From the NCBI RefSeq assembly GCF_023197165.1, contig NZ_JALPRD010000005.1, positions 62,001-126,000 on the forward strand: a stretch of DNA of 64,000 nucleotides. Direction: 5' to 3'. Source of the stretch: Sphingopyxis sp. MSC1_008 (lineage in GTDB: Bacteria; Pseudomonadota; Alphaproteobacteria; Sphingomonadales; Sphingomonadaceae). Below are positions 8,861 through 40,075 of the stretch, in pieces; positions within the stretch are counted from its first letter, which is position 1; each line of letters begins with the position of its first letter. Both the position numbers and the translations under genes were made by a program. Below the pieces are notes generated by a model. That model searched no databases and had not been told where the DNA came from. It saw only the letters and a program-made list of their open reading frames with translations.

Positions 8861-8886
8861 CATATACTTAGCAATAAAACTATTGC
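8861..8886. promoter_or_regulatory. Possible island-operator half-site plus 6-4-6 inverted repeat
   Basis: Bases 8865-8871 read TACTTAG, matching the half-site and flank seen at other island operators (for instance TACTTAG on the reverse strand at 10803-10820). The second half is not conserved. Overlapping it, GCAATA-AAAC-TATTGC (8871-8886) is a perfect inverted repeat. It lies between the divergent ACAD and EamA genes. Weak evidence compared with the other operator sites. Confidence 0.3.
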
Positions 8887-8946
8887 ATGGGGCCGCATGC
8901 ACAGTGCGATTCGAGTCGAAAATCACATGCACGGGCGGCGAGCGGC

Positions 8947-9858
8947 ATGAATCCGATCTGGCTTCCCGCGTCGCTGTTCGGCGGTCTGTTCCAGGCATGG
9001 CGCACCGCACTCCAGCAACGCCTGCGCGCAGAACTCAGCGTCAGTGGCGCGGGGTTGGTGCGTTATCTGTATGGCCTTCCCTTCGCGCTGGTCTTCGCCG
9101 CGATCTGGTTGACGATCCAGGGCGATGCGATCCCGGCATTCGGGACTGCCTTCGCGGGGTTCGCGGTCGCCGGGGCTATTACGCAGATGGCGGGGACGAT
9201 CCTGCTCATCATGGCGTTCGGGCATCGGGGGTTCGTCGTCGGCACCGCATTTTCGAAGACCGAAGCGGTGCAGGCGGCGCTCGTCACGGCGCTGTTCCTC
9301 GGCGAGCGATTGCCGCTGCTTGCATGGATCGGGATCGTCGCGGGGGTTGCGGGAGTGCTGGTGCTCGCGCTCGCCGGACGCGGCGTATCGGTGCGCGAGA
9401 TATGGCGCGCGCTCGGCCAGCCCGCCGCGCTCTGCGGGCTCGGAGCGGGGTCGATGTTCGCGCTCGCGGCGATTGCGGTGAAGCTTGCGACCGCCGAGCT
9501 CGCTGGCGTCGACCTGATCGGCTCGGCACTCGTCACGCTCGTTGTCGTGATGGCGATCCAGACCGGGCTGCACCTCGCGTGGGTTTTGCTGCGTGACCGC
9601 GATACTGCGCGCGCTGTTTGCCGCACATGGCGGAACTCGAGCCAGGTCGGGCTGCTCTCTGCGCTCGGTTCGGCCTGCTGGTACATCGGCTTCGCGGCGG
9701 CCCCGGCGGCACTGGTGCGGATCGTCGGGCAGGTCGAGGTCGTCTTCACGATCGGCTTCGCGCATTTCTATCTGCGCGAGCCGGTGCGCTGGCACGAGAT
9801 CGTCGGGCTGCTCCTTGTCGTCGCCGGCGTGATGATGGCGCTGCTAGCGACCTTTTAG
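8947..9858 (+). CDS. EamA/DMT-superfamily transporter
   Basis: A 303-residue membrane protein with about ten transmembrane helices arranged as two EamA repeats, rich in Gly/Ala and with short loops (for example GAITQMAGTILLIMAFGHRG and FTIGFAHFYLREPVRWHE near the ends of the repeats). DMT carriers move small metabolites, often as exporters; the substrate cannot be told. The start is ATG 8947 because the protein begins at once with a membrane segment (MNPIWLPASLFGGLF). An upstream in-frame ATG would add a hydrophilic, unlikely leader. Convergent with the HMG-CoA-lyase-like gene, the two stops overlapping in TTAG. Confidence 0.85.
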   Translation: MNPIWLPASLFGGLFQAWRTALQQRLRAELSVSGAGLVRYLYGLPFALVFAAIWLTIQGDAIPAFGTAFAGFAVAGAITQMAGTILLIMAFGHRGFVVGTAFSKTEAVQAALVTALFLGERLPLLAWIGIVAGVAGVLVLALAGRGVSVREIWRALGQPAALCGLGAGSMFALAAIAVKLATAELAGVDLIGSALVTLVVVMAIQTGLHLAWVLLRDRDTARAVCRTWRNSSQVGLLSALGSACWYIGFAAAPAALVRIVGQVEVVFTIGFAHFYLREPVRWHEIVGLLLVVAGVMMALLATF

Positions 9859-10757
9859 GGAAAAGCGGGCGCCTTGCTGACCATCGCCGGCAAGGGACGC
9901 GCCATGACACCCGCCAGCCATCCGGCTGCATCGACGACCTGCGGTAGCATCACGCCCGTCCGGACGCCGCTCTGTTCGAGCATATAGATCACATCCTCGG
10001 TCGCGACATTGCCCGCCGCGCCGGGCGCGAAGGGACAGCCGCCGAGCCCGCCGAGTGAGGCATCGACGGTCGCGGCGCCTTCGTTCACCGAGGCCCAGAC
10101 ATTGGCGATGCCGGTTCCGCGCGTGTTGTGGAAATGGACGCGCACCGGCAGGTCGCCGACCGCCTCGCGCACGCGCCCCACCATCTCGGACACTTGCGCC
10201 GGGACGCCGACGCCGATCGTATCGGCGAGCGCGATTTCGCGCGGGGCGGCATCGGCGGCGCGTTTCGCCATCTCGACGACGCGATCGATCGCGACGCGCC
10301 CCTCGAACGGGCAACCAAAGGCGGTCGCGATGGTGATCTGGCCGCTGCGCCCCGCTTCTTTCGCGAGCGCGACGATCTCCATCGCGGCGGCGAGCGATTC
10401 GTCCGAACTCTGCCCCTGGTTGCGGATGCCGAAACTGTCGCTCGTCACGCATACGGCGCCGAGTTCGTCGATCCGCCCGGTGGCTAGAGCGCGCTCGGCG
10501 CCGCGGCGGTTGAGGACGAGGCCGATCCAGGTGACATCGTCGCGGTCGGGCAGCATCGCCACCAGTTCCTCGGCATCGGCGAGCTGCGGTACTTTCTTGG
10601 GATTGACGAAGCTCGTCACCTCGATACGGCGCATACCATAGTCGATCGCGCGGCGGATCAGCTGGAGCTTGTCAGCGGTCGATACGATCGCCGCCTCGTT
10701 CTGCAGGCCGTCGCGCGGCCCGACCTCGACCATTTCCACTGTCCGGTTTTTCAACAT
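9855..10757 (-). CDS. Hydroxymethylglutaryl-CoA lyase family protein
   Basis: A 300-residue TIM-barrel lyase of the HMGL-like family. It has the substrate/metal motif VEVGPRDGLQNE near the N-terminus, the metal-binding VHFHNTRGTG near 210, and the lyase signature GLGGCPFAPGAAGN with the active-site cysteine. Family members cleave 3-hydroxy-3-methylglutaryl-CoA or similar 3-hydroxyacyl-CoAs by retro-aldol reaction, giving acetyl-CoA and a ketone or ketoacid. No leucine-degradation genes (mccA/B, ivd set) are next to it; it is divergent from a class III CoA-transferase across an operator of the island motif. A role in the island's own pathway, perhaps on a larger branched CoA ester, is therefore more likely than leucine catabolism. 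Confidence 0.88.
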   Translation of the reverse strand: MLKNRTVEMVEVGPRDGLQNEAAIVSTADKLQLIRRAIDYGMRRIEVTSFVNPKKVPQLADAEELVAMLPDRDDVTWIGLVLNRRGAERALATGRIDELGAVCVTSDSFGIRNQGQSSDESLAAAMEIVALAKEAGRSGQITIATAFGCPFEGRVAIDRVVEMAKRAADAAPREIALADTIGVGVPAQVSEMVGRVREAVGDLPVRVHFHNTRGTGIANVWASVNEGAATVDASLGGLGGCPFAPGAAGNVATEDVIYMLEQSGVRTGVMLPQVVDAAGWLAGVMARPLPAMVSKAPAFP

Positions 10758-10802
10758 CTTGCGTCCCGATTATCGCGAGTCATTTAGCAGGTTGAAAATT
10801 AC

Positions 10803-10815
10803 ATAGCATTCTAAG
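10803..10815. promoter_or_regulatory. Island operator site (ATAG-CATT-CTAA)
   Basis: ATAGCATTCTAAG, one mismatch from the palindrome TTAG-NNNN-CTAA. It sits in the divergent promoter between the HMG-CoA-lyase-like gene and the CoA-transferase gene. It is one of eight clear copies in the 10-40 kb island. Confidence 0.6.
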
Positions 10816-10876: not shown

Positions 10877-12040
10877 ATGAGCGAGACGAGCAGCGGGGGC
10901 GCGCTGGAAGGCATCAGGGTCGTCGAGATGGGGCAGCTGATCGCGGGTCCATTCTGCGGCCAGTTGCTCGGTGACATGGGCGCCGAGATCGTCAAGCTCG
11001 AACCGCCCGTCACCGGCGACCAGATGCGCAACTGGGGCCAGGGCGATAAGCCCAGCTGGTGGCGCGTGATCGCGCGCAACAAATATTCGGTCGCGGCCGA
11101 TTTGCGGTCGGAAGAAGGCCAGCAGCTGGCGCGCGAGTTGATCGCGAAGGCCGACATATTGATCGAGAATTTCCGGCCCGGAACGCTTGAGAAATGGAAC
11201 CTCGACCCGGCCGAACTGCGAAAGACCAACCCGGGGCTGATCGTCGTGCGCGTGTCGGGCTATGGCCAGACCGGCCCCTATTCGGCTCGCGCCGGTTTCG
11301 GCGGCATCGGTGAGGCGATGGGCGGATGGCGCGGTATAGTCGGCTACCCCGACCTGCCGCCCGCGCGCATGGGCGTATCGATCGGCGACACGCTCGCCGC
11401 TACTTACGGTTGCATGGGCGCGCTCGCCGCGCTCCACCATCGCAGCAAGACGGGCGAAGGCCAGATCGTCGATTCCGCGCTTTACGAGGCGGTGCTGCAG
11501 GTGATGGAATCGACCGTGTCGGACTATTCGGCGAGCGGCACCAAGCGCCGGCGTACCGGATCGACCCTGCCCGGCATAGCGCCGTCGAACGTCTATCCGT
11601 GCAAGGACGGCGAATATCTGATCGGCGCCAATCAGGACGGCGTCTTCGCGCGCCTCGCCGCCGCGATGAGGCGACCCGAGCTCGCTAGCGACGAGCGCTA
11701 CGCTACCCACCGCGCGCGCGGCGTCCGGCAGGAGGAGCTCGACATGCTGATCGGCGAATGGACCGCGACGCTTACGATCGCCGAATTGGAAGCAAAGATG
11801 GTCGAATCCGGCGTCCCCGCGGGACGCGTTTTCGACGCCGAGGATATGCTGGCCGACCCGCATTTCGCCGCGCGCGACGCGCTGGTGAAGGTCGCAGACG
11901 AGGAGTTCGGCGAGATCACGATGCAGGGCGTCTTCCCCAAGATGTCGGCGACGCCGGGCAGCGTGCGCCGCCCTGCCCCGCTGGCGGTCGGACAGGATAG
12001 CGCCGAGGTGCTGAAACGCTGGCTTGGACGGGAGGCTTGA
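10877..12040 (+). CDS. CaiB/BaiF-type (class III) CoA-transferase
   Basis: A 387-residue protein of the formyl-CoA transferase/alpha-methylacyl-CoA racemase family. The N-terminus GIRVVEMGQLIAGPFCGQLL and LGDMGAEIVKLEPP are diagnostic; the catalytic aspartate is expected in MGVSIGDTLAATYG. These enzymes move CoA between carboxylic acids without free energy cost, or epimerise 2-methylacyl-CoAs. AAAGGA lies seven bases before the ATG. The gene is followed 4 bp later by a GST gene on the same strand, so the two are co-transcribed. A CoA-transferase beside GSTs recalls the isoprene pathway (IsoG with IsoI/IsoJ), where the acid is a glutathione conjugate; this is an analogy only. Confidence 0.9.
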   Translation: MSETSSGGALEGIRVVEMGQLIAGPFCGQLLGDMGAEIVKLEPPVTGDQMRNWGQGDKPSWWRVIARNKYSVAADLRSEEGQQLARELIAKADILIENFRPGTLEKWNLDPAELRKTNPGLIVVRVSGYGQTGPYSARAGFGGIGEAMGGWRGIVGYPDLPPARMGVSIGDTLAATYGCMGALAALHHRSKTGEGQIVDSALYEAVLQVMESTVSDYSASGTKRRRTGSTLPGIAPSNVYPCKDGEYLIGANQDGVFARLAAAMRRPELASDERYATHRARGVRQEELDMLIGEWTATLTIAELEAKMVESGVPAGRVFDAEDMLADPHFAARDALVKVADEEFGEITMQGVFPKMSATPGSVRRPAPLAVGQDSAEVLKRWLGREA

Positions 12041-12044
12041 TCCG

Positions 12045-12749
12045 ATGATCACCCTATATGGCGGCCCCACCCCCAACGCGCGCAAGATCGCGATCGCGCT
12101 CCTCGAAATGGGGCTCGAATGGCGGCTCGACTATATCGACATCCTCGCTGGCGATCAGCTCACGCCCGAATTCCTCGCGCTCAACCCGAACAACAAGACT
12201 CCGGTGATCGTCGATGACGAGGGCCCGGGCGCCGAGCGGTTCGTGCTTTGGGAAACGGGCGCGATCCTGCTCTACCTCGCCGAGAAGACCGGGCGCTTCC
12301 TGCCTGCCGATCCGGTGAAGAGGGCAATCTGCTGGCAATGGCTGATGTTCCAAGTGTCGGGCGTCGGTCCGATGTTCGGGCAGGAGGCGCATTTCACCCA
12401 TTATGCCAAGGACCGGCACGAATACGCCATCGATCGCTACAGCCGCGAGGTCGACCGGCTGATGATGGTGATCGACAAACGTTTGGGCGAAGCCGAATGG
12501 CTCGCGGGCGACGACTATACCATCGCCGACATGGCGACCCTGCCCTATCTGCGCCGCCAGCTGACCGAAAAAGCCGGCCGTTTCCCAAATGTCGACCGCT
12601 GGGGCACAGCGATGCTCGAACGCCCCGCCGTCGCCGAGGGGATGACAGTCGGCGTCGCGCGCGCCGAAACGATTGAAGGCGGCCTGACCGGCTTCACCGA
12701 CGAGCATCGCGCGATCCTGTGGGGCGACCGCCAACACGCCAAGCGATGA
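12045..12749 (+). CDS. Glutathione S-transferase family protein (copy 1)
   Basis: A 234-residue GST. The thioredoxin-like N-domain starts at once with MITLYGGPTPNARKIAIAL; the glutathione-contact turn LWETGAILLYLAEK carries the conserved Glu/Thr pair. The helical C-domain ends near residue 205 and a charged tail follows (DEHRAILWGDRQHAKR). The TPNxxK start is typical of the YfcG/YghU (Nu-like) group, which bind two glutathiones or act as disulfide-bond reductases and thiol lyases. Start ATG 12045 lies 4 bp after the CoA-transferase stop. It is convergent with copy 2, with 3 bp between their stops. Confidence 0.9.
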   Translation: MITLYGGPTPNARKIAIALLEMGLEWRLDYIDILAGDQLTPEFLALNPNNKTPVIVDDEGPGAERFVLWETGAILLYLAEKTGRFLPADPVKRAICWQWLMFQVSGVGPMFGQEAHFTHYAKDRHEYAIDRYSREVDRLMMVIDKRLGEAEWLAGDDYTIADMATLPYLRRQLTEKAGRFPNVDRWGTAMLERPAVAEGMTVGVARAETIEGGLTGFTDEHRAILWGDRQHAKR

Positions 12750-12752: not shown

Positions 12753-13478
12753 TCAATCCTTCGCGACAGCCGCATGGTTGGCGTCGCCGAACATGTTCGA
12801 CCATTCCTTGTCGTCGAGCGTCTGGTGACGGCCAACATATTTCGCCGGCGCCTTCAGGTCGTCCCGCGCCATTGCGCGTGCAACAGCCGGGCGCTCACGG
12901 ATCCGTTCGAACCACGCGTGCATCGCGGGCCATTCGTCGAGCCCCATGCCCATCACGAACGCCGAGGCGCGGCCGGGCCAGATTGCCATGTCGGCGATCG
13001 TATAATCGTCGCCAGCAACGTAAGCGCTCTTCTCCAGTCGCTTTTCGAGCACGGTAAGCAGGCGTTTGAGTTCCTTCGTATAACGTTCGACGGCATAATC
13101 CTGCCCCGCTGGGGCATAGCGCAGGAAATGGCTCGCCTGCCCGCCCATCGGCCCCAGCCCCGCGACCTGCCAGGTCAACCACGACAGCGTCGCCGCGCGC
13201 GCCGCGCCCGATGCGGGCAGGAAGCGCCCGCTCTTCTCAGCGAGATATTGCAGGATCGCGCCGGATTCGAACACCGTCACCGGATCGCCGCCTCCTTCGA
13301 GGTCCTGATCGACGATCGCGGGCAGCTTGTGGTTCGGATTGATCCGCCCGAACTCGGACGTCAGTTGGTCGCCGTCGAAGATGTCATAGGGGATGACGCG
13401 GTGCGGCTCCCCAATCTCCTCAAGCATGATCGCAATTTTCTGCCCGTTCGGGGTCGCCGAATAATGGAGATCGATCAT
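12753..13478 (-). CDS. Glutathione S-transferase family protein (copy 2)
   Basis: A 241-residue GST of the same TPNG subgroup as copies 1 and 3: MIDLHYSATPNGQKIAIML, then VFESGAILQYLAEK for glutathione contact and a helical domain with DYTIADMAIWP. The C-terminus carries the extension KEWSNMFGDANHAAVAKD, closely matching the end of copy 3 (EEQWSNLFGKNMLEAP), so these two are recent relatives. The start is the ATG at 13478, one base after the stop of the DUF3237 gene, indicating translational coupling. An in-frame ATG at 13493 would overlap that gene and add residues that precede the conserved first strand. Confidence 0.9.
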   Translation of the reverse strand: MIDLHYSATPNGQKIAIMLEEIGEPHRVIPYDIFDGDQLTSEFGRINPNHKLPAIVDQDLEGGGDPVTVFESGAILQYLAEKSGRFLPASGAARAATLSWLTWQVAGLGPMGGQASHFLRYAPAGQDYAVERYTKELKRLLTVLEKRLEKSAYVAGDDYTIADMAIWPGRASAFVMGMGLDEWPAMHAWFERIRERPAVARAMARDDLKAPAKYVGRHQTLDDKEWSNMFGDANHAAVAKD

Positions 13479-13479
13479 C

Positions 13480-13986
13480 TCACAGCACCTCATGGATCAC
13501 ATGGCGCACTCCGAAATCGGTGCGCTCGCCGACGCCCACCGCGAGCACGCCGTTCAGCCAGCCATATTTCGCGCTCGCGGTTTCGAACACCGGAGCGATT
13601 CGCAGATAGTAGCGCGATGGGTTGGCATCGGGGACGGCGGGATCGATGAAGGTCGCGCGCACATCGTCGGGGATGATGTTGCGCCCGGTGTAGCTCAGAT
13701 AGATGAGCTCGCCGTCATCGGTCTGCCACACCGCACGGGCATCGAACGTGCCGACCGAAGCGTCGCCCCCCAGCCGCCCGCTGCGCGACCAGTTGCCACC
13801 ACCGGGCAAAACTATGCCATTGATCCGCGGCCCGAAAAACCGGCCGCCGCTGATATAGCCGAGCCGCTGATCGCCAAAGGGCGACGCGCCGATAGCAATG
13901 ATCCCGCCGCCTACCTCGAACTCGACGGTGCAAAGATGGCGCGTTGCCAGCGCGGCCGGTGCCGTCTGCGTATTTTCTTCGTTCAT
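13480..13986 (-). CDS. DUF3237 family protein
   Basis: A 168-residue protein of the DUF3237 beta-barrel family, recognised by FEVGGGIIAIGASPFGDQRLGYISGG (two blocks around residues 22-47), GRFFGPRINGIVLPGGGNW and ATFDARAVWQTDDGELIYLSYTG-like strands. The function is not established; members often sit with aromatic or acyl-CoA catabolic genes. ATG 13986 is preferred because GGAAGAGGA lies in front of it; a longer frame begins upstream at 14046 but crosses the operator. It is the first gene of an operon with GST copy 2 and is divergent from a TonB receptor across a perfect island operator. Confidence 0.8.
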   Translation of the reverse strand: MNEENTQTAPAALATRHLCTVEFEVGGGIIAIGASPFGDQRLGYISGGRFFGPRINGIVLPGGGNWSRSGRLGGDASVGTFDARAVWQTDDGELIYLSYTGRNIIPDDVRATFIDPAVPDANPSRYYLRIAPVFETASAKYGWLNGVLAVGVGERTDFGVRHVIHEVL

Positions 13987-14027
13987 GATGCGAATCCTCT
14001 TCCTGCCTATGGACAAGCATAAAACCA

Positions 14028-14039
14028 TTAGTATACTAA
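14028..14039. promoter_or_regulatory. Island operator site (TTAG-TATA-CTAA, perfect palindrome)
   Basis: TTAGTATACTAA is a fully self-complementary 12-mer in the divergent promoter between the DUF3237-GST operon and the TonB receptor gene. It is the best single match to the island consensus. Confidence 0.7.
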
Positions 14040-14041
14040 GG

Positions 14042-14056
14042 GTCAATCAGATTGAC
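14042..14056. promoter_or_regulatory. Inverted repeat GTCAAT-CAG-ATTGAC
   Basis: A perfect 6-3-6 inverted repeat directly beside the island operator, about 50 bp before the TonB receptor start. The core resembles GTCAAC-TAA-GTTGAC in the hairpin at 22333-22347. It could be a second operator or a leader hairpin. Confidence 0.4.
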
Positions 14057-14108
14057 GGATCGGAAGGCTTTCCGGGACCGCGACGATAAGCTCTATGGGA
14101 GGGTGAAG

Positions 14109-16373
14109 ATGAAGGCGCATAACCAGTTCCTGCTGTCCGGCGTGGCGGCGATCGCGATGCTTGCCAATGCCGCACCGGCGATGGCGCAGGCAGCCCCTGC
14201 CGACACGGCGGACGTCGACGACAGCAATAGCAACGAAATCATCGTCACCGCCCAAAAGCGCGAGCAGAATCTGCAGAACGTGCCGATTTCGATGGAAGTC
14301 GTCAGCGGCGCGAAGCTCGCCGAATTCAACACCAGCGACATCAAGGCGGTGATGAACTACACCCCGAACGTCTTTGTCCAGTCTACCGCGGGCAACGACG
14401 TCATCTATATCCGCGGTTTCGGTTCGCCGCCGGCGAACTTCGCCTTCGACCAGTCGGTCTCGCTCTATGTCGACGGCATCTACGCCGGCCGCAACCGTCA
14501 GGCGCAGGCGCCCTTCTTCGACCTCGCGCGCGTCGAAGTGCTGCGCGGGCCGCAGGGCGCGCTGTTCGGCAAGAACACCGCGGCGGGCGCGGTCAGCGTC
14601 GTATCGGCGGGTCCGACGAAGGATTTCGAAGGCGCGATCACCGGCCTTTATAACTTCGACCATAAGGGCACCGATTTCTCGGGCTATCTGTCGGGGCCGA
14701 TCAGCGACACGCTCGGCGCGCGCTTTGCGTACAAGATCGTCAATCAGGACGGTTATATCTACAACCGCGCGACCGATCACGACGATCCCGAAATCAAGTC
14801 GCAGTTGCTGCGCCTGACCGTGAAGTGGGAACCCTCGGCCAATTTCGATTACACCGCGAAGGTCGAGTACGGAAACCGCGAAGTCATCGGCGGCATCACC
14901 GTGTCGAGCCCGCTGACCAGTGGCCAGGACCCGCAGACCACGCGCTATCTCGAACGCTCGGCGCTTGGCGACGAGGGCAATAAAAACAAGTCGGTGATGG
15001 TCTCGGGCGTCGGCAATCTCGCGCTCGGCGATTTCACCCTGACCTCGGTCACCGGTTACAGCTGGTTCAAGTCGAAGATCGTGAACGGCTTCGACCAGAC
15101 GATCCCGAACAGCGGCGGCGCGGTCGTTCCCAACTCGGTGTACAACGCCTTCCCCGAACGTTTCGACCAGATTTCGCAGGAAATCCGCATCCTGTCGCCG
15201 ACTGGCAAGACCTTCGAGTTCATCGCGGGTGCCTATTACGACAAGTCGGATTATACGCTGGAACAATTTCAGGGCTTCAACATCGCCAGCCTGAATTATT
15301 TCGGCCGCATCGACAGCATCTTCCGGCAGAAGGCCGAATCCTGGTCGGTCTTTGGCCAGGCGACGTTCAACATCAGCGACGCGTTCCGCGCGATCGGCAG
15401 CCTGCGTTACAGCCACACCAAGAAGGACGGCGCTTTCGCTTCGCGGCTTGTCTACGGCCCCTTCGCGCTGCGTCCGATCTCGAGCGCGACGGGCTCGATC
15501 AGCGAAGGCAATGTCGACCCGTCGGTGACGCTGCAATATGACATTGCGCCGCGCATCATGGTCTATGCGACGTGGGGCCGCGGCTCGAAATCGGGTGGCT
15601 TCGTGTCGAACACACTCGGCACGACCAGCGCGACCTTCACCTTCGAACCCGAACAGTCGGAGAATTTCGAGGCCGGCATCAAATCGACGCTGTTCGACGG
15701 CAAGGTCGTCGCGAACCTCTCGGCCTATCACACGAAGTTCAAGGACCTGCAGGTTTCGGTGTATCAGCCCGCAATCTCGAGCTATCTGACCGGCAATGCC
15801 GCCGCGGCAACGTCGAAGGGCCTCGAAGGATCGCTCAGCATCTTCCCGATCCCCAATTTCGACATCAGCGCGTCGGCCGCCTATTCGGATATCAAATATG
15901 ACAACTATCCCGGCGCGGCTTGCCTCGCCAGCCAGCCGTTGTCGGTTTGCAATCCCGCACAGACCGATCGGACGCAACCGAACCACGTCGCGAACAATAA
16001 CCTGGCCGGTTACCCTGTTGCCTATTCGTCGAAATATACGGGAAGCGTGACGGCGCACGCGCGGTTCGACCTGTCGAGTGATTTGAAGTTCGACATCACC
16101 GGCGTTGCATCGGCACGGTCGAAATATTTCAACTCGGATAACCAGAGCCCGATCTTCGGCGTCCAGGGCGGTTATGCGAAGCTCGACCTTCGCGTCCAGC
16201 TGGCCGACCAGGACGACCGCTGGCACGTCGCGCTCGTCGGCAAAAACCTGACCAACGAGAAGACGATCGGCAGCGCGTTCAACCTGCCGGCGCCGATCAC
16301 CGCGGCGCCGCGCGCGATCCTCTATCTCGAACCCACGCGCAACATTTCGGTCGAGGCCGGAATCAAGTTCTAG
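14109..16373 (+). CDS. TonB-dependent outer-membrane receptor
   Basis: A 754-residue receptor. The signal peptide runs MKAHNQFLLSGVAAIAML to AMAQA; the plug starts with EIIVTAQKREQNLQNVP and contains YIRGFGSPPANFAFDQS and VEVLRGPQGALFGKNTAAG. The barrel ends with the aromatic-type C-terminus ISVEAGIKF. It belongs to the same large sphingomonad group as the 3.2 kb receptor and probably imports the growth substrate of the catabolic island, since its promoter holds the island operator. ATG 14109 follows GGGAGGGTGAAG; an upstream in-frame start would precede the signal peptide with a charged stretch. GST copy 3 follows 100 bp downstream on the same strand. Confidence 0.93.
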   Translation: MKAHNQFLLSGVAAIAMLANAAPAMAQAAPADTADVDDSNSNEIIVTAQKREQNLQNVPISMEVVSGAKLAEFNTSDIKAVMNYTPNVFVQSTAGNDVIYIRGFGSPPANFAFDQSVSLYVDGIYAGRNRQAQAPFFDLARVEVLRGPQGALFGKNTAAGAVSVVSAGPTKDFEGAITGLYNFDHKGTDFSGYLSGPISDTLGARFAYKIVNQDGYIYNRATDHDDPEIKSQLLRLTVKWEPSANFDYTAKVEYGNREVIGGITVSSPLTSGQDPQTTRYLERSALGDEGNKNKSVMVSGVGNLALGDFTLTSVTGYSWFKSKIVNGFDQTIPNSGGAVVPNSVYNAFPERFDQISQEIRILSPTGKTFEFIAGAYYDKSDYTLEQFQGFNIASLNYFGRIDSIFRQKAESWSVFGQATFNISDAFRAIGSLRYSHTKKDGAFASRLVYGPFALRPISSATGSISEGNVDPSVTLQYDIAPRIMVYATWGRGSKSGGFVSNTLGTTSATFTFEPEQSENFEAGIKSTLFDGKVVANLSAYHTKFKDLQVSVYQPAISSYLTGNAAAATSKGLEGSLSIFPIPNFDISASAAYSDIKYDNYPGAACLASQPLSVCNPAQTDRTQPNHVANNNLAGYPVAYSSKYTGSVTAHARFDLSSDLKFDITGVASARSKYFNSDNQSPIFGVQGGYAKLDLRVQLADQDDRWHVALVGKNLTNEKTIGSAFNLPAPITAAPRAILYLEPTRNISVEAGIKF

Positions 16374-16473
16374 GTTCGAATTCGATGTCCCAGGGATCGG
16401 CCGCGATCGAAGCTTTCCGCGACAGGGAAGCCGCGATCGCGGTCGTGACCTGTATGAAGGGGTGAACCGCGAC

Positions 16474-17184
16474 ATGATCGACGTCTATTTCACGCCCACG
16501 CCGAACGGCCATAAAGTCTCGATCATGCTCGAAGAGGTCGGGCTGCCGCACCAGTTGCTCGCGATGAACATGCTCGAAGGGGATCATTTGACCCCCGAAT
16601 ATCGCCGCATCAATCCCAACGGCCGCCTGCCCGCGATCGTCGATCATGAGCCCATAGGCGGCGGTGCGCCGCTGCCGGTGTTCGAGAGCGGTGCGATCCT
16701 GCTCTATCTCGCCGAGAAGAGCAGGCGGTTGCTTCCCGAAAGTCCGCGCCGCCGCAGCCAGGCGCAGCAATGGCTGATGTGGCAGATGGCGAGCTTCGGC
16801 CCGATGCAGGGACAGGCGCACCACTTCATCCGCTATGCGCCCGAGGGCCAGACCTATCCGATCGAGCGCTATCGCAACGAGACGCTGCGGCTGCTCCACG
16901 TCCTCAACGGCCGGCTGAGCGAGGCGGATTATCTCGCTGAGGAATATAGCATAGCCGACATCGCGGCGTGGCCGTGGACGCGTGCGATCCGCGCGATCGG
17001 GCTGACGCTCGATGACTATCCCGCGGTCGCCGACTGGTTCGCGCGCGTCGGCGAACGGCCCGCGGTAATGGCAGGCACCGACGTCAAGAACGCCGCGAAC
17101 CTGTCGAGCGCGCGCCCGGTGCTGACAGAGGAGCAATGGTCGAACCTGTTCGGCAAGAATATGCTGGAAGCGCCGACGCGGTGA
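16474..17184 (+). CDS. Glutathione S-transferase family protein (copy 3)
   Basis: A 236-residue GST of the TPNG subgroup: MIDVYFTPTPNGHKVSIML, glutathione-contact VFESGAILLYLAEK, and a helical domain with EEYSIADIAAWPWTRAI. Its C-terminal WSNLFGKN tail matches copy 2. Start ATG 16474 is in line with the other copies; an in-frame ATG four codons upstream is possible. It probably belongs to the transcription unit of the TonB receptor just upstream. A palindromic repeat follows the gene and may end transcription. Confidence 0.9.
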   Translation: MIDVYFTPTPNGHKVSIMLEEVGLPHQLLAMNMLEGDHLTPEYRRINPNGRLPAIVDHEPIGGGAPLPVFESGAILLYLAEKSRRLLPESPRRRSQAQQWLMWQMASFGPMQGQAHHFIRYAPEGQTYPIERYRNETLRLLHVLNGRLSEADYLAEEYSIADIAAWPWTRAIRAIGLTLDDYPAVADWFARVGERPAVMAGTDVKNAANLSSARPVLTEEQWSNLFGKNMLEAPTR

Positions 17185-18143: not shown

Positions 18144-18186
18144 GTATTTTTGGAACGGGAAGACTCGTGCGTTTTTGGAGAGTGTG

Positions 18187-20366: not shown

Positions 20367-20376
20367 GGAGACTATC

Positions 20377-30505: not shown

Positions 30506-30506
30506 G

Positions 30507-31637: not shown

Positions 31638-31678
31638 CGTCTCTCCTGAATATGGTTTTTGTCAGCAGGTAACTATTA

Positions 31679-31744: not shown

Positions 31745-31759
31745 AGAAAGAGGACGCCA

Positions 31760-33424: not shown

Positions 33425-33437
33425 ATAGTATACTAAG
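33425..33437. promoter_or_regulatory. Island operator site (ATAG-TATA-CTAA)
   Basis: ATAGTATACTAAG contains the perfect palindrome TAGTATACTA and is followed by TATTTT as at 18144-18150. It lies 31 bp before ligase 2 and about 100 bp before the MarR 1 start. Confidence 0.65.
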
Positions 33438-33540: not shown

Positions 33541-33990
33541 ATGCGCACCAACCAGCTTATCATCGCGCTTTTTCAGCGCTTCTGCTGGCTCGACGAAGGG
33601 CTTCAGGCGCGCCTCCACGATCATGGCTGGCCCGACGTCAATCGCCCGCAATCGATGGTGATGACGAATATCGTCAGCGGTATCGTGCGCCCGTCGGACA
33701 TCGCACGCAACCTGGGCGTATCGCGGCAGGCGATCCACAGCACGATCAACCAGATGGTGAAGCTCGGCATCGTGCAGATGGAGGTCGATCCCGCGGACCG
33801 CCGTCACATGATCGTGTCGCTGACCGACCTCGGCGCGCGCATGCGCAAGGATGCGCAGCGTTCGATGGACGCGCTCACCGCACAGATCGCCGCCAGGCTG
33901 GGGCAGGACAAGTTCGACGCGCTGCTCGCGGCGCTCGAGGCCGACTGGGGCGACAATATCGAACCCGCCCCCTCGCGCCGCGGCACCTAG
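33541..33990 (+). CDS. MarR-family transcriptional regulator 1
   Basis: A 149-residue winged-helix protein: helix-turn-helix VRPSDIARNLGVSRQAIHST, recognition into INQMVKLGIVQMEVD, wing PADRRHMIVSLTDLGARMR, then a long C-terminal dimerisation helix (LTAQIAARLGQDKFDALLAAL). It is a likely repressor relieved by an aromatic acid or CoA ester. ATG 33541 is taken because it opens the conserved N-terminal helix; upstream in-frame starts exist. An island operator lies in its divergent promoter, so autoregulation is likely. It is convergent with the FMN reductase, their stops overlapping in CTAG. Confidence 0.87.
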   Translation: MRTNQLIIALFQRFCWLDEGLQARLHDHGWPDVNRPQSMVMTNIVSGIVRPSDIARNLGVSRQAIHSTINQMVKLGIVQMEVDPADRRHMIVSLTDLGARMRKDAQRSMDALTAQIAARLGQDKFDALLAALEADWGDNIEPAPSRRGT

Positions 33991-34562
33991 GCCGACAGCG
34001 CCTTCGCGACCGCAATCAGCCGTCCGGCGGTCGTCTCGACGAGCGAGGCCGGCAGCGGCTCCTTCAAACTGCCATCCTCGGCAAAGGCCGCGTGCGCGTT
34101 CGGCACCAGCACCTGTTCGGGGATTACCAGCATCTGGATCGTCGACAATATCTGGCGCAGATGCATCAGCCCGCGGAGCCCGCCGAACGGGCTGATCGAC
34201 GCCGACATGATCGCCGCTGCCTTGCCGCGATAGGCGGTGAGCGCGACAAGACTCTCATCGCCGGTCGGGCGGGAGGCCCAGTCGATCGCATTCTTGAGCA
34301 GGGGCGGCAGCGAGCCATTATATTCGGGCGACACGAACAGCAGGCCGTCCTGCGCGACGAAGAGCGCTTTGAGCTTCAGCGCGTCGGGCGGAAACGCGCC
34401 GGCCTCCAGCGCCGCCGAATAGAGCGGCAGGTCGAACGCTGCGAGGTCGATGCGCGTCACGCTTGCGCCCTGCGCTTCGAGGCTGGCGGCCGCCAGTTCG
34501 CCCAAGGCGCGATTAAAGGACCCCTCGCGGGTGCTTCCAACGATAATAGCGATGTTGGTCAT
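33987..34562 (-). CDS. NAD(P)H-dependent FMN reductase
   Basis: A 191-residue flavodoxin-fold reductase: IAIIVGSTREGSFNRALGEL (FMN phosphate loop), VSPEYNGSLPPLLKNAIDWA (flavin contact) and ASISPFGGLRGLMHLR. Family members reduce FMN, quinones, azo compounds or chromate. In a catabolic island it may supply reduced flavin to an oxygenase or reduce a quinone-like intermediate, but no two-component flavin monooxygenase is visible nearby. Its promoter holds an island operator nested in a larger palindrome. Confidence 0.9.
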   Translation of the reverse strand: MTNIAIIVGSTREGSFNRALGELAAASLEAQGASVTRIDLAAFDLPLYSAALEAGAFPPDALKLKALFVAQDGLLFVSPEYNGSLPPLLKNAIDWASRPTGDESLVALTAYRGKAAAIMSASISPFGGLRGLMHLRQILSTIQMLVIPEQVLVPNAHAAFAEDGSLKEPLPASLVETTAGRLIAVAKALSA

Positions 34563-34570: not shown

Positions 34571-34607
34571 CCGGACAATATAGTTAGTATTCTAACCTAT
34601 TGTCCGG
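34571..34607. promoter_or_regulatory. Island operator (TTAG-TATT-CTAA) nested in a larger palindrome
   Basis: The core GTTAG-TATT-CTAAC (34583-34596) is enclosed by CCGGACAATA (34571-34580) and TATTGTCCGG (34598-34607), a perfect 10-bp pair. It lies just upstream of the FMN reductase and just downstream of MarR 2, both on the minus strand, so it could serve as operator for one and terminator for the other. Confidence 0.65.
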
Positions 34608-34628: not shown

Positions 34629-35135
34629 TCAAGCCTTGATGTCGGACAGCACCGCGAGCTTGCGCGTTTCATCGCCAAGATTGTCGATGACGCGGCGCAT
34701 CAGCCCCTGCAGAACCTCGACCTCTTCGTCGGTCATGCCCTTGGTCGCGATCTCGTGGATCTCGGCGTTCATCGGCGCGAGGATCAGTTCGAGCTTCTTC
34801 GCGTGCGGGGTCAGGTGAATGAAGGTCTTGCGCCGGTCGTCGGCGGTCTTCTTGCGCGTGATCAATCCCGCCTTTTCCAGCCCCTTGAGCGCGACGACCG
34901 TCGTCGGTTCGCGCATTCCGACGCGTTCGCTGAGCTCGCGCTGGGTGATGCCATCCTCGCGCCACAGCTGGCGCAGGAACCGCCACTGCCCCGCCGAGAC
35001 GTCATGTGTCAGCGTGCGGCGTTCGAGCAGCCGCGAAAAGGAGCGAAAGACGACACGCGCCAGATAGCCGATACTGTTTTCAGGATCGGTGTAATATTCG
35101 GCGGGATGCCGGTAATCCTGTGTTTTCTTTGCCAA
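34629..35135 (-). CDS. MarR-family transcriptional regulator 2
   Basis: A 168-residue winged-helix regulator: N-terminal helix ENSIGYLARVVFRSFSRLLE, helix-turn-helix TQRELSERVGMREPTTVVAL, KGLEKAGLITRKKTADDRRK (wing), and C-terminal dimer helices. I take the TTG at 35135 as start (product begins MAKKTQDYRHP) since GGGGAGCAGGA lies before it; an ATG at 35246 would add 37 unusual Arg/Gly-rich residues. It is divergent from leuD across an island operator and lies between two copies of that motif, making it the first candidate for the regulator of the island. Confidence 0.85.
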   Translation of the reverse strand: MAKKTQDYRHPAEYYTDPENSIGYLARVVFRSFSRLLERRTLTHDVSAGQWRFLRQLWREDGITQRELSERVGMREPTTVVALKGLEKAGLITRKKTADDRRKTFIHLTPHAKKLELILAPMNAEIHEIATKGMTDEEVEVLQGLMRRVIDNLGDETRKLAVLSDIKA

Positions 35136-35297
35136 AATCCTGCTCCCCTGTCGCGGTCCCCGGCGGCGAGCGCCGCCCCGCGCAAGCGCGAACCTTAGAA
35201 CGCGAAGATTCACCCGGCAACCATCTTCATCGCCATCTTGCGCCACATCGCCCTTCCAACCTCTCGATAAAGTTGGACAAGATCGGTCGATCCATTT

Positions 35298-35313
35298 ACT
35301 TAGAATGCTAAGT
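35298..35313. promoter_or_regulatory. Island operator site (ACTTAG-AATG-CTAAGT)
   Basis: A 6-4-6 perfect inverted repeat containing TTAG-AATG-CTAA, the longest-armed copy of the motif. It lies 13 bp before the leuD start and upstream of MarR 2. Confidence 0.7.
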
Positions 35314-35326: not shown

Positions 35327-35911
35327 GTGCAAAAATTCATCCGGATGAAAGCGATCGCAGCGCCGCTGCCGTTCGCCAATGTTGACACCGACATGATCAT
35401 CACCGCGCAATATATGAAGGCGCTGACCCGCACGGGCCTCGGCAAGCATCTCTTCCGCGAATTGCGGTTCGCGGAAGATGGCGGCGAACGCGGCGACTTT
35501 ATTCTGAATCAGCCGACATGTCGTGGCGCGCAGGTCATAGTTGCCGACCGCAATTTCGGCTGCGGCTCGTCGCGCGAACATGCTGTGTGGGCGCTCACCG
35601 ACTTCGGCATCCGCTGCGTCGTCGCGCCAAGCTTCGGCGATATCTTTGCCGGGAACGCCCGCAAGAACGGCCTGCTGCTGATCCGCCTGCCCGACGAAAG
35701 CTGCGCACGGCTGCGCGAGGAAATTGCGCTCGCGCAATATGCCCCGATCGAAGTCGATCTGGAAGCGCAGCGGATCGGGCTCGCGTCGGGCGAGGCGATC
35801 GATTTCGAGATCGATCCCGATGACCGCCGCATCCTGATGGAAGGACTCGACGATATCGCCCGTACGCTGCGTCACGCCGACGCGATCGCGCGGTTCGAAG
35901 CGGCGCTCTAA
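35327..35911 (+). CDS. leuD: 3-isopropylmalate dehydratase small subunit (LeuD-type)
   Basis: A 194-residue swivel-domain subunit of the aconitase-family isomerases: FANVDTDMIITAQYMK, the substrate-binding GCGSSREHAVWAL and FGDIFAGNARKNGLL. With LeuC it moves a hydroxyl between neighbouring carbons of a 2- or 3-substituted malate. The start is a GTG at 35327 behind AATGGAGG. Unlike the usual leuC-leuD operon it faces its large subunit tail to tail, and its promoter carries the island operator. This suggests an inducible catabolic paralogue acting on a different malate, such as citramalate- or dimethylmalate-like acids, rather than leucine synthesis. Confidence 0.9.
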   Translation: MQKFIRMKAIAAPLPFANVDTDMIITAQYMKALTRTGLGKHLFRELRFAEDGGERGDFILNQPTCRGAQVIVADRNFGCGSSREHAVWALTDFGIRCVVAPSFGDIFAGNARKNGLLLIRLPDESCARLREEIALAQYAPIEVDLEAQRIGLASGEAIDFEIDPDDRRILMEGLDDIARTLRHADAIARFEAAL

Positions 35912-35921: not shown

Positions 35922-37334
35922 CTATCCCGGCATCTCGGGCGCCGCGATGCAGCCCGCAATCGCACTGGCTGCCGCCAGCGCGGGGCTCATCAGGTGGGTG
36001 CGCCCGCCGCGTCCCTGCCGATTCTCGAAATTGCGGTTCGACGTCGCGGCGCAGCGTTCGCCGGGCTGCAGCCGGTCGGCGTTCATGCCAACGCACATCG
36101 AACAGCCGGGTTCGCGCCAGTCGAACCCCGCGTCGCGCAGGACGCGGTCGATGCCCTCCACCTCGGCCTGCCTTTTGACCAGCCCCGACCCCGGCACGAC
36201 CATCGCGCGAACATGCGGCGCGACGCGGCGGCCGTGCACAACTTCGGCGACGAGGCGCAGGTCCTCGATCCGGCTGTTGGTGCAGCTGCCGATGAACACG
36301 CGGTCGAGCCGCAATCCGGCGATCGGCGTGCCCGGCGTCAGATCCATATAGGCGAGCGCGCGCGTCGCTGCCGCACGCGCTTCGGCGCTCGTCAGCGCGG
36401 CCGGAACGGGAACCAGCCCGTCGATCGCGACAACCTGCGCCGGGTTCGTGCCCCAGCTCACCATCGGCCGGACATCGCGCGCATCGATCCGCAGCTCGCG
36501 ATCGAATATCGCCGCATCATCGCTTGCGAGGGTCGCCCAGCGCGCTTGCGCGCCACCCCACGCCTGCCCCGTCGGCGCCGCGGGCCGACCCGCCAGATAG
36601 GCGAAGGTCGTCGCATCGGGCGCTACCAGCCCCGCGCGCGCGCCCATTTCGATGCTGAGATTGCACAGCGTCATCCGCCCCTCCATCGACAGCGCGCGGA
36701 CGGCTTCGCCGGCATATTCGATGACATGCCCTCCCGCCCCGTCGACCCCGATCACGCCGAGCAGGTGGAGCGCGAGATCCTTGGCATGGACGTGCGGCGC
36801 GAGCATGCCGTCGACCGTCACGCGCATGTTGCGCGACCGGCGTTGGCGGATCGTCTGCGTCGCGAGCACATGTTCGACCTCCGACGTGCCAATGCCGAAC
36901 GCGAGCGCGCCGAACGCGCCATGCGTCGAGGTGTGGCTGTCGCCGCACACGATCGTCATCCCCGGCTGCGAACGCCCCTGTTCAGGTCCAACGACATGGA
37001 CGATTCCGCCGCGCGGATCGCCCATCGGGAAATTCTCGATGCCGAAATGGCGCGTGTTGTCGACCAGCGCTTCGAGCTGCGCGCGCGCTTCGGCATCGGC
37101 AACCCCGGCGGGCCCCGCCGCCTGCCCCGCCGTCGGCACATTATGATCGGACAAGGCGAGCGCGCGCTCGGGGCGCCGCACCGCCCGGCCTGCCGCCGCC
37201 AGCCCGGCGAAGGCCTGCGGCGAGGTTACCTCATGAAGCAGGTGGAGGTCGATATAGAGCAAAGTCTCGCCATCATCCTCGGCGACGGCGTGCGCGTCCC
37301 ATATCTTGTCGTAGAGCGTGCGGGGCGGGTTCAC
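35922..37334 (-). CDS. leuC: 3-isopropylmalate dehydratase large subunit (LeuC-type)
   Basis: A 470-residue catalytic subunit with the [4Fe-4S] cluster ligands in [13 protein letters not shown] and GCSMCVGMN, active-site segments [20 protein letters not shown] and [17 protein letters not shown]. Length equals that of ordinary LeuC. The start is a GTG at 37334 that overlaps the stop of the upstream acyl-CoA dehydrogenase (GTGA), so the two are translated together. It therefore belongs to a kinase-ACAD-LeuC operon reading toward leuD, with only ten bases between the two stop codons. The substrate is probably a malate-type intermediate of the island. Confidence 0.92.
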
Positions 37335-38626
37335 AGTGTCCCGATCGTTTCGCGTCGCGGCCCCATATACCCGAACAGATAAGCGGCGACCTTCCGCATC
37401 TGGATTTCCTCGGCGCCTTCGGTGATGCGATATCTTCGGTGGTGGCGATAGATATGTTCGAACGGCTTGTGGCGCGAGTAGCCGATGCCGCCATGGACCT
37501 GCATCGCGCGGTCGGCGGCTTCGCAGACGAGGCGGTTCGCCCAGTAATTGCACATGCTGACCTTGTCGGAGAGGGTGCGTTCGACCTCCTTGTGCGGCGT
37601 GTTGTCCATGTCCCACGCGGTCTTGCGGATCAGCAGCCGCAGCATCTCGGCCTGCGTCGCGAGCTCGACGAGCGGGAACTGGATCGCCTGGTTCTTCGCC
37701 AGCGCCTCGCCGAACGGCTTGCGCTCGCGCGCATATTTGACCGACTCCTCGATGCAATAGACCGCGGCGCCCAGCGAGCTTGCCGCCTGGCGGATGCGGT
37801 TCTGGTGGACGAAGCTCTGCGCGATCGAGAGGCCGCCGCCTTCGGGGCCTAATCGCGCCTCGTCGGGCACCCACACATCGGTGAACGTCATCCTTGGATG
37901 GTCGGTCGGCATGTTGAACGTCCACATATATTCATCGACGGTCATGCCGGGGGTCCCGGTCGGCACGAGCAGGCAGGTGATGCCTTTCGCATCGCCATCG
38001 CTTCCGCTCGTGCGGCAGAAGGTCGCGCAATGCGTCGCTGTATGCATCCCGGTGATCCACATCTTGCGCCCGTCGATCCGCCAGCCGTCGATGCCGTCGC
38101 GCGTTTCGCGCACCGCGCGCGTCTCCATATGCGTCGCGTCCGACCCGTGATCGGGCTCGGTCAGCCCGAACGCGGTGCGCCTTTTGCCCTCGAACCCGCC
38201 GAGGATGAACTCGGCCTTCTGCTCCTCGCTGGTGCCGAACTGCTCGAACATCTCGACGAACGGGAAGTTGCCGACGATGCTATGCTCGTTCTGAAGATCG
38301 TTGTGGAGGCCGAGGCCCTTCGCCGCGAAGTGCTCGCGGATCACCGCCATCGCGAGGTTCGAGCCGTCCTTGCCGCCGTACTTCTTCGGCGCCGAGAAGC
38401 GCCAGTGGCCCGCGGCGTCGGCCTTGCGGGTGGCCTGGCGCAACAGCGCTTCCCACTCGTGGCGCGGCAAGCCCTGATTGTCCCAGTCGGTGCGTGCATG
38501 CTCGCGGCGGTGGTCGAAGAAGCGGATATTGTCGTCCGCCAGTTCGAGCGGTTTGATCTCGGCGTCGATAAACGCGTCGAGTTCGCCCAGATACGCCTGC
38601 AAGTCGGCGGGCATCGCAAAATCCAT
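37331..38626 (-). CDS. Acyl-CoA dehydrogenase, ACAD10/11-like
   Basis: A 431-residue ACAD with an unusually rich N-terminal domain ([28 protein letters not shown]) and central [37 protein letters not shown]. The C-terminal domain includes [21 protein letters not shown] and the catalytic Glu region [15 protein letters not shown]. This subgroup resembles ACAD10/ACAD11 and LvaC-type enzymes, which act after a kinase on 4-hydroxyacyl-CoAs. The upstream gene is exactly such a kinase. Start ATG 38626 follows GGGAGAGA. Confidence 0.9.
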
Positions 38627-38645
38627 GTCTCTCTCCCTTTTGTCT

Positions 38646-39977
38646 TTAGCCGCGCCAGTCGGCGCGCGCCGCGGCGAGCGCGGCATATTTGGGGCTGTCG
38701 ATCGCGCATTTATCGAGCACATCGCGCCGCAGCTCCGCGAGCAGGCCCGGTTCGGCGAGGGTCGTGGTTCCCGACAGCAAGGCTTCGGCCAGCGCCGTAT
38801 TCTCGGCGCGCACGCCGACATCGAGGTCGCGCAGCACGATGCCGAGCGCGTTCATCGCAACCACCGCTTCGAACTTGGCATGCCCCTCGGCCTGCGGCTT
38901 GATCGATCCCTCGATCCAGTCGCGCACCGCCTGCACGATCTCGCGGTTCGTCGGCTCGCCGGTCGGTGCGGACGCGGCATCCGGCGAAGGCGGTAAGGCC
39001 CGCGCGCGCTCGGCCTCGGGCGCCTCGTCTTCGAGCAAGCGCACGAGATCAAGCTCCTGCTCGGCGGTCCGCCGGCCGATGACGACACGCTCGACCGTCG
39101 GGTCGGCACCACTTCGCCACATCTGCCCCATCTGCAGGCAGCCGAGTGCCCACCACAAGGTGCGGTAGATCAGCCAGAAGCGGAAGCGGCCGCGGTCGAC
39201 CTTCGCACCGCCCGCCGCCTCATAGGCAGCAAAATACTCGTCAAGGCGGCCGACCCCGAACGCCGGCTTGTCGAGCATGCCGAAGCGCCACACGGTCATG
39301 CAGCCGAACGCCAGATCCTCATGCGCATCGCCGCGGTGCGCAAGCTCCCAGTCGAGCACGACGGCCAGCCCGTCCGCATCGACCATGATGTTGCCCATGC
39401 GGTAGTCGCCGTGGACGAGCACCGGCGCCGCGGGGTCGGGCAGATGATCCTCGCACCACCGGATCGCCAGCGCGATCGCCGGCCGGTCGCCGCCATACGA
39501 CAGGAAGCGCGCACGAAGCTCGGCCAGCGCCGCCGCCGTGTCCATCAGCGGGATCGCAGCGGGCACGCGGTCCAGCGGGATCCTATGGATGCGCGCCAGC
39601 TCACGGCCGAGGTCGCCGAGCAGCGATGGCGGCGGATCGGCAAGGATCTTCGCCGGCGCCACCTCCGCCATCACCCGCCGCATCACATAGCCCGTGCCTA
39701 GACCGTCAGCGTCTGTCAGCACGCCGACCACCTCAGGCGCCTTCACCCCCGCATCAAACGCCGCCATTACCAGCGCCGCCTCGTCGACATGACCGAATGG
39801 GCGGTCCGCCATATAATCCGCCGACGGCGCACGCCGCAGCACATAGGCCTCCCCCGCCCAGTCGAACGCAAAACTCTCCATGTTCGCACCACCCGACAAC
39901 CGCGTCAGGCCCGACAAAACACCGGGGCCCGCAATCCGGGTCATCAGCGCAAGGAGCAAGGCGGCAACGTCGGTCAT
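38646..39977 (-). CDS. APH-family kinase with C-terminal DUF6285 domain (ACAD10/LvaA-like)
   Basis: A 443-residue protein. Residues 1-300 form an APH kinase with SGGANMESFAFDW, LVHGDYRMGNIMVD (189-201) and VVLDWELAHRGDAHEDLAFG; residues about 345-443 match DUF6285 (NREIVQAVRDWIEG, VAMNALGIVLRDL). Kinases of this type next to an ACAD are known from bacterial levulinate catabolism (LvaA with LvaC) and from the animal ACAD10/11 proteins, where the 4-hydroxyl of an acyl-CoA is phosphorylated and then eliminated. It is the first gene of the kinase-ACAD-LeuC operon, behind an island operator. Confidence 0.88.
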   Translation of the reverse strand: MTDVAALLLALMTRIAGPGVLSGLTRLSGGANMESFAFDWAGEAYVLRRAPSADYMADRPFGHVDEAALVMAAFDAGVKAPEVVGVLTDADGLGTGYVMRRVMAEVAPAKILADPPPSLLGDLGRELARIHRIPLDRVPAAIPLMDTAAALAELRARFLSYGGDRPAIALAIRWCEDHLPDPAAPVLVHGDYRMGNIMVDADGLAVVLDWELAHRGDAHEDLAFGCMTVWRFGMLDKPAFGVGRLDEYFAAYEAAGGAKVDRGRFRFWLIYRTLWWALGCLQMGQMWRSGADPTVERVVIGRRTAEQELDLVRLLEDEAPEAERARALPPSPDAASAPTGEPTNREIVQAVRDWIEGSIKPQAEGHAKFEAVVAMNALGIVLRDLDVGVRAENTALAEALLSGTTTLAEPGLLAELRRDVLDKCAIDSPKYAALAAARADWRG

Positions 39978-40061
39978 GCGAACGGCGTCCCGCGCACGGA
40001 AAATCTCATGATATTAGGCATTCCACACCCGCATCGCCCGCACCTTCTCGCTCGCCAATTA

Positions 40062-40075
40062 CTTAGTATTCTAAC
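40062..40075. promoter_or_regulatory. Island operator site (CTTAG-TATT-CTAAC)
   Basis: TTAG-TATT-CTAA at 40063-40074, same core as the site at 34584-34595. It lies between the kinase-ACAD-LeuC operon (minus) and the cupin gene (plus). It is the last copy I see; none appears in the gaps from 40.6 to 64 kb. Confidence 0.65.

Follow-up and report, generated by a model that had tools for sequence, protein, structure and literature searches.

Among described regulators of the MarR family, SlyA/RovA proteins recognize a 12-bp palindrome, whose SlyA consensus in the available portion of the report is TTAGCAAGCTAA (PMC5797941). CouR of R. jostii (PDB 3FM5/5CYV) is described, in the part of its report at hand, as a MarR protein that serves divergent promoters from one inverted repeat, ATTGA-N5-TCAAT, overlapping promoter boxes (PMC4737184). 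In sphingomonads, the accessible excerpts on DesR and Saro_0803, two MarR regulators of aromatic catabolism, give inverted-repeat promoter sites of the form GTTTGTGTCACATAC and GCAATA-N6-TATTGC, respectively (PMC6888825, PMC10046596). Here, we analyzed a 64,000-nucleotide stretch (the window) from a member of the genus Sphingopyxis, positions 62001-126000 of a 290-kb contig in a 4.75-Mb assembly, in which the palindrome TTAG-NATN-CTAA recurs in the promoter regions of a catabolic gene island. We propose that this palindrome is a conserved promoter element shared by one catabolic gene set, and that it is likely the operator of MarR1, a putative repressor encoded inside the island (rough probability, 0.6).

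The TTAG and CTAA arms of the exact sites in the island are identical to those of the SlyA/RovA operator as quoted in the available text, and the palindrome is of the same TTAGCAAGCTAA-like kind, with a TTAN6TAA core (PMC5797941). The island differs mostly in the NATN center of its sites and in having eight of them concentrated on one catabolic locus. The use of one inverted repeat for divergent promoters and its overlap with promoter boxes are as in CouR, and inverted-repeat promoter sites are also found with DesR and Saro_0803; the sequences quoted for all three, however, are unlike TTAG-N4-CTAA. With its SlyA-consensus arms, the operator is therefore of a known type. A preliminary description of the window, which had proposed a single regulon operator, did not mention these arms or the remote regulon member described below; its operator reading otherwise stands. 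An open-access literature search with the motif strings and the island retrieved, among the matches listed, no relevant work on the regulation of this island. What is new here is a MarR-type regulon that is both large and well conserved, built around an uncharacterized pathway.

All eight sites reported in the preliminary description were found at the positions claimed, and each departs from TTAGNNNNCTAA by one arm change at most:

10803-10814, operator A, ATAGCATTCTAA, between the HMG-CoA-lyase-like gene (minus strand) and the family III CoA transferase (plus strand)
14028-14039, operator B, TTAGTATACTAA, between the DUF3237 gene (minus) and the TonB-dependent receptor (plus)
18132-18143, operator C, TTAAATACCTAA, between a short-chain dehydrogenase (SDR; minus, 17311-18078) and the MFS transporter operon (plus)
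25441-25452, operator D, ATAGAATACTAA, between CoA ligase 1 (minus) and the MetE-like protein (plus)
33425-33436, operator E, ATAGTATACTAA, between the CoA ligase 2 operon (minus) and MarR1 (plus)
34584-34595, operator F, TTAGTATTCTAA, upstream of the FMN reductase (minus)
35300-35311, operator G, TTAGAATGCTAA, between MarR2 (minus) and the LeuD-like small subunit (plus)
40063-40074, operator H, TTAGTATTCTAA, between the APH2/acyl-CoA dehydrogenase/LeuC-like operon (minus) and the cupin (plus)

As had been claimed, seven of the eight sites lie in divergent intergenic regions, including the one at 18132; the remaining one, at 34584, precedes the FMN reductase gene. The center of the palindrome is AT (NATN) in seven of the eight. 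Together, the eight promoter regions serve about 15 gene groups with about 30 genes across 9.8-40.6 kb, so that the palindrome marks nearly every promoter of the island; operon boundaries are read from gene order. A co-directional gene ("orf17") to the left of operator C was rejected as a wrong-strand reading, because substitutions fall at minus-strand wobble positions and the protein read from that strand is the SDR; the 0/13 upstream regions with a site counted for it are therefore void.

The number of sites in the window is higher than expected by chance (10 matches to TTAGNNNNCTAA, with up to one change in the arms allowed, versus 2.1 expected; 10 was reached in 0 of 100 shuffles), and all matches fall between 10.8 and 40.1 kb. 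A match at 37841 was discarded because it lies inside coding sequence. A one-mismatch match at 35195 was likewise discarded as a second MarR2 operator, because it falls on the predicted MarR2 −10 element, upstream of the true start. A half-site near 8865, also listed in the preliminary description, is not supported: a site with at most one change occurs in only 1 of 7 ACAD_b upstream regions in relatives (locus L202), and we rejected it as a boundary operator for this lack of conservation. EamA upstream regions in the arrangement of the window also have a site in 1 of 7 cases, which is the same L202 site. Beside operator B, at 14042-14056, there is a second inverted repeat, GTCAATC-A-GATTGAC, which is almost fully conserved in the DUF3237/TonB receptor promoter consensus and is perhaps a site for another regulator.

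Across the 4.75-Mb genome, exact TTAGNNNNCTAA occurs 8 times, with 4 of the occurrences inside the island (reversed control, 17 genome-wide), and the presence of 4 of 8 exact sites in a 29.3-kb stretch has a binomial probability of 1e-7. The sharper pattern WTAGNATNCTAW is found 9 times, 7 of them inside the island (reversed control, 0), but it was shaped on the known sites and chosen afterwards, and its probability needs caution. A loose set allowing one change anywhere is uninformative, as it gave 100 sites genome-wide versus 863 for the reversed pattern and no enrichment. The window shuffles and the genome-wide clustering exclude chance as the source of the motif density, and the exact motif is not equally common outside the island.

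To compare promoters among relatives, orthologous loci were collected around MarR2, in genomes of the genus and in other genera. We counted sites with at most one arm change in unique, full 250-bp upstream sequences of genes with at least 55% identity. Orthologous islands were found to keep the motif rather than to lack it. For operator A, the site is kept in 19/20 upstream regions of the HMG-CoA-lyase-like gene (HMGL) and 20/21 of the CoA transferase. Operator B is retained in 16/16 DUF3237 and 15/15 TonB receptor upstream regions, always as TTAGTATACTAA, and operator C in 15/15 MFS upstream regions, always as TTAAATA[C/T]CTAA. For operator D, the site is present in 42/45 CoA ligase 1 and 45/46 MetE-like upstream regions (ATAGAATACTAA in 41/46); for operator E, in 56/57 CoA ligase 2 and 58/60 MarR1 upstream regions; and for operator F, in 53/55 FMN reductase upstream regions. 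Operator G is found in 49/49 LeuD-like upstream regions and, after two −10 look-alikes were dropped, in 55/70 MarR2 upstream regions (57/70 before), while operator H is found in 10/10 APH2 upstream regions and 1/1 of the cupin. In general, a promoter tends to retain a variant of its own, which is often imperfect, and this extends to split or rearranged islands. The MarR2 upstream region of L092 holds ATAGTATTCTAA 92 bp upstream. When the pattern was reversed, per-promoter counts were high for the TonB receptor (12/15) and DUF3237 (13/16), which share one conserved sequence, and for SMP-30 (11/16); they were lower for MarR2 (9/70), AcnC (9/49), CMD (3/15) and Hydr4 (3/50), and at most 2 for other genes. 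Such nonzero controls are a reminder that a single chance match can be inherited by orthologs.

Genes internal to the operons have no site with at most one change upstream in relatives; these are the four glutathione S-transferase genes (GST1-4), SDR, CMD, SMP-30, glyoxalase, AbHyd, 2HaDH, enolase, APH1, Acn and ACAD_c. The neighboring genes LuxR and ACAD_a have a site in 0/4 upstream regions each. Where gene order has changed, sites appear at other genes. Hydr4 has a site in 9/50 upstream regions, and six of these nine are in islands without CoA ligase 2 directly before it. EamA has one in 9/15, and in eight of these nine, all exact, EamA adjoins Acn (aconitase-like) or APH2. HMGL located beside MarR1 in rearranged islands also has a site. 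Sites are retained when the receptor block is 1.76 Mb away from the MarR block (genome G016) and when the island genes are in three places (G050). Outside this genus they also occur, in shuffled order, in islands from Novosphingobium, Sphingomonas, Sandaracinobacteroides and Polymorphobacter and in those of Phenylobacterium, where MarR2 identity is 57-60%.

The occurrence of the motif also follows that of the MarR genes. Among 80 genomes of the genus, exact TTAGNATNCTAA is found in 60/60 genomes with both MarR orthologs (mean, 3.4 sites), in 2/18 with neither, and in 1/2 with MarR2 but no intact MarR1. The corresponding counts for the reversed control are 21/60, 7/18 and 0/2. Exact sites also occur in 18/20 further genomes, where the counts include background and do not separate MarR1 from MarR2.

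Positions of the sites relative to TTG boxes (counted where present in half or more of the aligned orthologs) indicate how the operator may act. The TTG box is 23 nucleotides (nt) before the site at the FMN reductase promoter (72% of 53 orthologs), 27 nt before it at the LeuD-like gene and 28 nt at APH2, so that a −10 hexamer at these three promoters would overlap the site. At the DUF3237, MetE-like, CoA transferase and MFS promoters the box is 7-13 nt before the site, which would thus fill the −35/−10 spacer. The distance is 17 nt at CoA ligase 2; for CoA ligase 1, the usable rows were too few to give a consensus. At MarR2, a predicted and well-conserved promoter follows the site at a distance of about 100 bp:

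35192-35220, minus strand, predicted MarR2 promoter TTGCCG-17-TAAGGT, from an alignment of 70 unique upstream regions

Because sites overlap the −10 element or fill the spacer at several promoters, repression is the probable mode of action, and the positions likely fit a repressor that blocks RNA polymerase. Genome-wide clustering, promoter-by-promoter conservation, MarR presence and absence, and promoter-element overlap all support the single regulon operator of the preliminary description. Its further suggestion, that the island itself encodes the MarR protein that reads the operator, is likely, and the comparisons made here favor the first of two candidates:

33541-33990, plus strand, MarR1, 149 amino acids, probable reader; Pfam MarR_2 (PF12802), 37.2 bits (cut-off, 27)
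34629-35135, minus strand, MarR2, second MarR protein, with a TTG start at 35135; Pfam MarR (PF01047), 54.2 bits (cut-off, 24.6)

The start of MarR2 was re-set to TTG 35135 from the upstream alignment; the MarR1 homologs listed are mostly 149-152 amino acids long. Both proteins have a winged-helix MarR domain above the curated cut-off, MarR1 shows the MarR fold, and the palindrome is present, by sequence, at promoters that include those of the MarR genes themselves. In the 56 loci with both genes and full upstream regions, the site is found at MarR1 in 55 and at MarR2 in 50: at both in 49, at MarR1 only in six (L099, L100, L102, L103, L106 and L107) and at MarR2 only in one (L070), which seems to be a start-mapping miss because the site adjoins its CoA ligase 2. 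At nine more loci MarR2 was counted but MarR1 was not (L142, L143, L144, L088, L097, L098, L104, L105 and L101); the MarR2 upstream regions there have no site, apart from −10 look-alikes in L088 and L142. Of these loci, L101 in fact carries MarR1 with its site, at a contig end; in the genomes of L088, L098, L104 and L105, no MarR1 match has an E value below 2.8e-5. Given these losses of the upstream site where no MarR1 is counted, MarR2 behaves more like a target.

We hypothesize that MarR1 would sit on TTAG-NATN-CTAA and block RNA polymerase, and that a pathway metabolite would release it and switch on transcription of the island. The inducer may be a CoA thioester made by one of the island ligases, MarR2 may be a target or partner of MarR1, and the conserved imperfect variants could provide graded operator strength. 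CouR is the best PDB sequence match of MarR1 (1e-5), although the similarity is weak. The CouR regulon includes a CoA ligase. By analogy, this similarity and the two CoA ligases in the regulon suggest that MarR1 may be a CouR-type, acyl-CoA-responsive repressor.

Several observations weigh against MarR1 as the reader. The binding of MarR1 to the operator is itself a step that we infer from sequence comparisons. Genomes are related, and genome and locus counts are therefore not independent events; the two MarR genes mostly co-occur, so that presence and absence cannot cleanly separate them, and in only two genomes of the genus does MarR2 occur with no intact MarR1 (G026, where an exact site is absent, and G034, where there is one). 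Most loci without a site have also lost much of the island, and the six islands with a site at MarR1 only all belong to the Sphingomonas/Sphingosinicella group and may represent one event. Outside the main island, the few loci with MarR1 only or MarR2 only give a mixed pattern. Among the MarR1-like loci there, no site with at most one change is found in L139, L175, L176, L182 and L185, and several others hold one-change sites only. A relocated MarR1 (L145 in G038) has no site either. Arg-Gln opens the predicted recognition helix in all 41 aligned MarR1-type proteins, but the identity of that helix between paralogous islands is 0.37 versus 0.38 in the rest of the protein; since the corresponding values for MarR2 are 0.47 and 0.47, helix identity favors neither protein. 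The available text on CouR equates the SlyA base contacts Ser62, Val64 and Arg65 with CouR Asp65, Ser67 and Gln68 (PMC4737184), and these positions align with Ser94, Gln96 and Ala97 of MarR1 (in a 182-amino-acid reading). MarR1 thus shares one (Ser) of the three SlyA residues, and its contact residues do not support placing it in the SlyA lineage. Finally, the HMGL, TonB receptor, MarR1, MarR2, EamA and Hydr4 promoters show no TTG box common to at least half of the orthologs.

Could MarR2 be the main reader, with MarR1 as its target or helper? MarR2 is strongly conserved (orthologs of up to 98% in the genus), carries the site in 55/70 of its upstream regions, and is closer than MarR1 to SlyA by sequence (3q5f at 1.4e-8; the five chains that MarR1 matches include no SlyA). 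Two MarR2-like loci without a MarR1-like gene also have an exact site about 0.6 kb (L188) or 4.8 kb (L186) away. Yet six islands with the site at MarR1 have none in the MarR2 promoter, nor do the nine loci where MarR1 was not counted, and the recognition helix varies among MarR2 homologs of motif-bearing paralogous islands, which makes this role for MarR2 unlikely. We consider it slightly less likely again that both proteins read the palindrome, as competitors or as a heterodimer, with one repressing and the other tuning the response or adding a second signal. The frequent pairing of the genes speaks for such an arrangement, since both carry the site in 49/56 main loci and eleven paralogous loci (L128-L137 and L147) combine MarR1-like and MarR2-like genes with sites, exact TTAGNNNNCTAA in ten of them. 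It does not extend to L140, L141, L173, L174 and L178 (L140 and L173 seem to represent a single orthologous locus), where MarR1-like genes occur with exact sites and no MarR2-like gene in the stretch.

That the element is not a repressor operator but a core promoter, namely a bidirectional −10 element (TAGNAT/ATNCTA), is highly improbable. Both strands of the palindrome do contain −10-like hexamers, with a TTG about one promoter spacing away at the FMN reductase, AcnC and APH2. Nevertheless, the palindrome is confined to the regulon genome-wide save for two sites, tracks the MarR genes across genomes, and falls in the spacer rather than at the −10 position for MFS, the CoA transferase and DUF3237. 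On balance, the comparative evidence favors MarR1 as the probable reader.

Matches to WTAGNATNCTAW outside the island point to a wider regulon. There are two, at C2:324015 and C3:96135. The first (ATAGTATTCTAA) precedes an operon of a TonB receptor and a sulfatase that is remote from the island (L046:10016-14137), and both the site and the sulfatase are kept with this receptor (82-100% identity) in 9/9 loci of the genus, its own included. The second (L048:5136) is TTAGAATTCTAA, located some 150 bp before a different TonB receptor and within a longer, partly palindromic context. The paralogous loci L128-L137 and L147, all in the genus, also hold TonB receptors, and the site of L136 is a one-change site only. 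Six of these loci (L128-L132 and L147) have a sulfatase related to that of the remote operon, and L128 additionally holds an acyl-CoA-dehydrogenase-type protein. It is tempting to speculate that the compounds handled by these regulons are sulfated or contain sulfur.

We tentatively suggest, as one joint proposal that is possible rather than probable, that a single SlyA-like operator code is common to sphingomonad regulons with twin MarR genes and TonB receptors, comprising the main island, the paralogous islands and free receptor-sulfatase operons. Under this proposal, the imperfect variant fixed and selectively kept at each promoter might set the order of induction, and genes that newly head operons after rearrangement might carry the operator as well. 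The main island might encode an undescribed glutathione-, CoA- and phosphate-activating pathway, and each paralogous island might have a MarR pair of its own, in many cases together with a sulfatase. Of the 80 genus genomes examined, 60 have the motif along with the two MarR genes, and the operator joins about 30 genes that look unlinked into what is likely a single pathway under one signal. It is a direct handle for missing pathway genes genome-wide, as the receptor-sulfatase operon illustrates, and a route to the inducer and to how the regulon stays coherent while its operons shuffle and split.

Besides the MarR genes, the island encodes the following:

9855-10757, minus strand, HMG-CoA-lyase-like protein (PF00682; NF004283, 297.8 bits, cut-off 246)
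10877-12749, plus, family III CoA transferase and glutathione S-transferase
12753-14046, minus, glutathione S-transferase and DUF3237 protein; open frame extends across operator B
14052-17184, plus, TonB-dependent receptor and glutathione S-transferase
17311-18078, minus, SDR (PF00106; minus-strand wobble pattern)
18175-23618, plus, operon of MFS, SDR, CMD-family protein, SMP-30, glutathione S-transferase and glyoxalase
23840-25456, minus, AMP-binding CoA ligase 1; open frame extends across operator D
25503-26543 (start approximate), plus, MetE C-terminal-domain-like protein (PF01717; below NCBIfam cut-offs)
26624-33394, minus, operon of CoA ligase 2, hydrolase (Hydr4), APH kinase, enolase paralog, 2-hydroxyacid dehydrogenase and alpha/beta hydrolase
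33987-34562, minus, NADPH-dependent FMN reductase (PF03358)
35327-35911, plus, LeuD-like isomerase small subunit (NF002458, 246.8 bits, cut-off 167)
35922-39977, minus, APH2 kinase (DUF6285), acyl-CoA dehydrogenase and LeuC-like large subunit
40084-40593, plus, cupin (PF07883), the final regulon gene within the window

The true start of the DUF3237 gene is to the left of operator B, and that of CoA ligase 1 is likely to the left of operator D. The content of the island includes four glutathione transferases, SDRs, two CoA ligases, two hydrolases and the two MarR proteins. GST1-3 match YfcG-like structures, which we take to be Nu-class, and GST4 weakly matches LigF among others; these matches do not decide the substrate. 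At 28233-30505, inside the catabolic operon, a full-length enolase paralog adjoins an APH-type kinase and a 2-hydroxyacid dehydrogenase, which suggests phosphorylation followed by an enolase-type elimination on some substrate. Outside the regulon, at 2261-3157, the window encodes a protein with an MPAB/Lcp catalytic domain (rubber oxygenase-like family).

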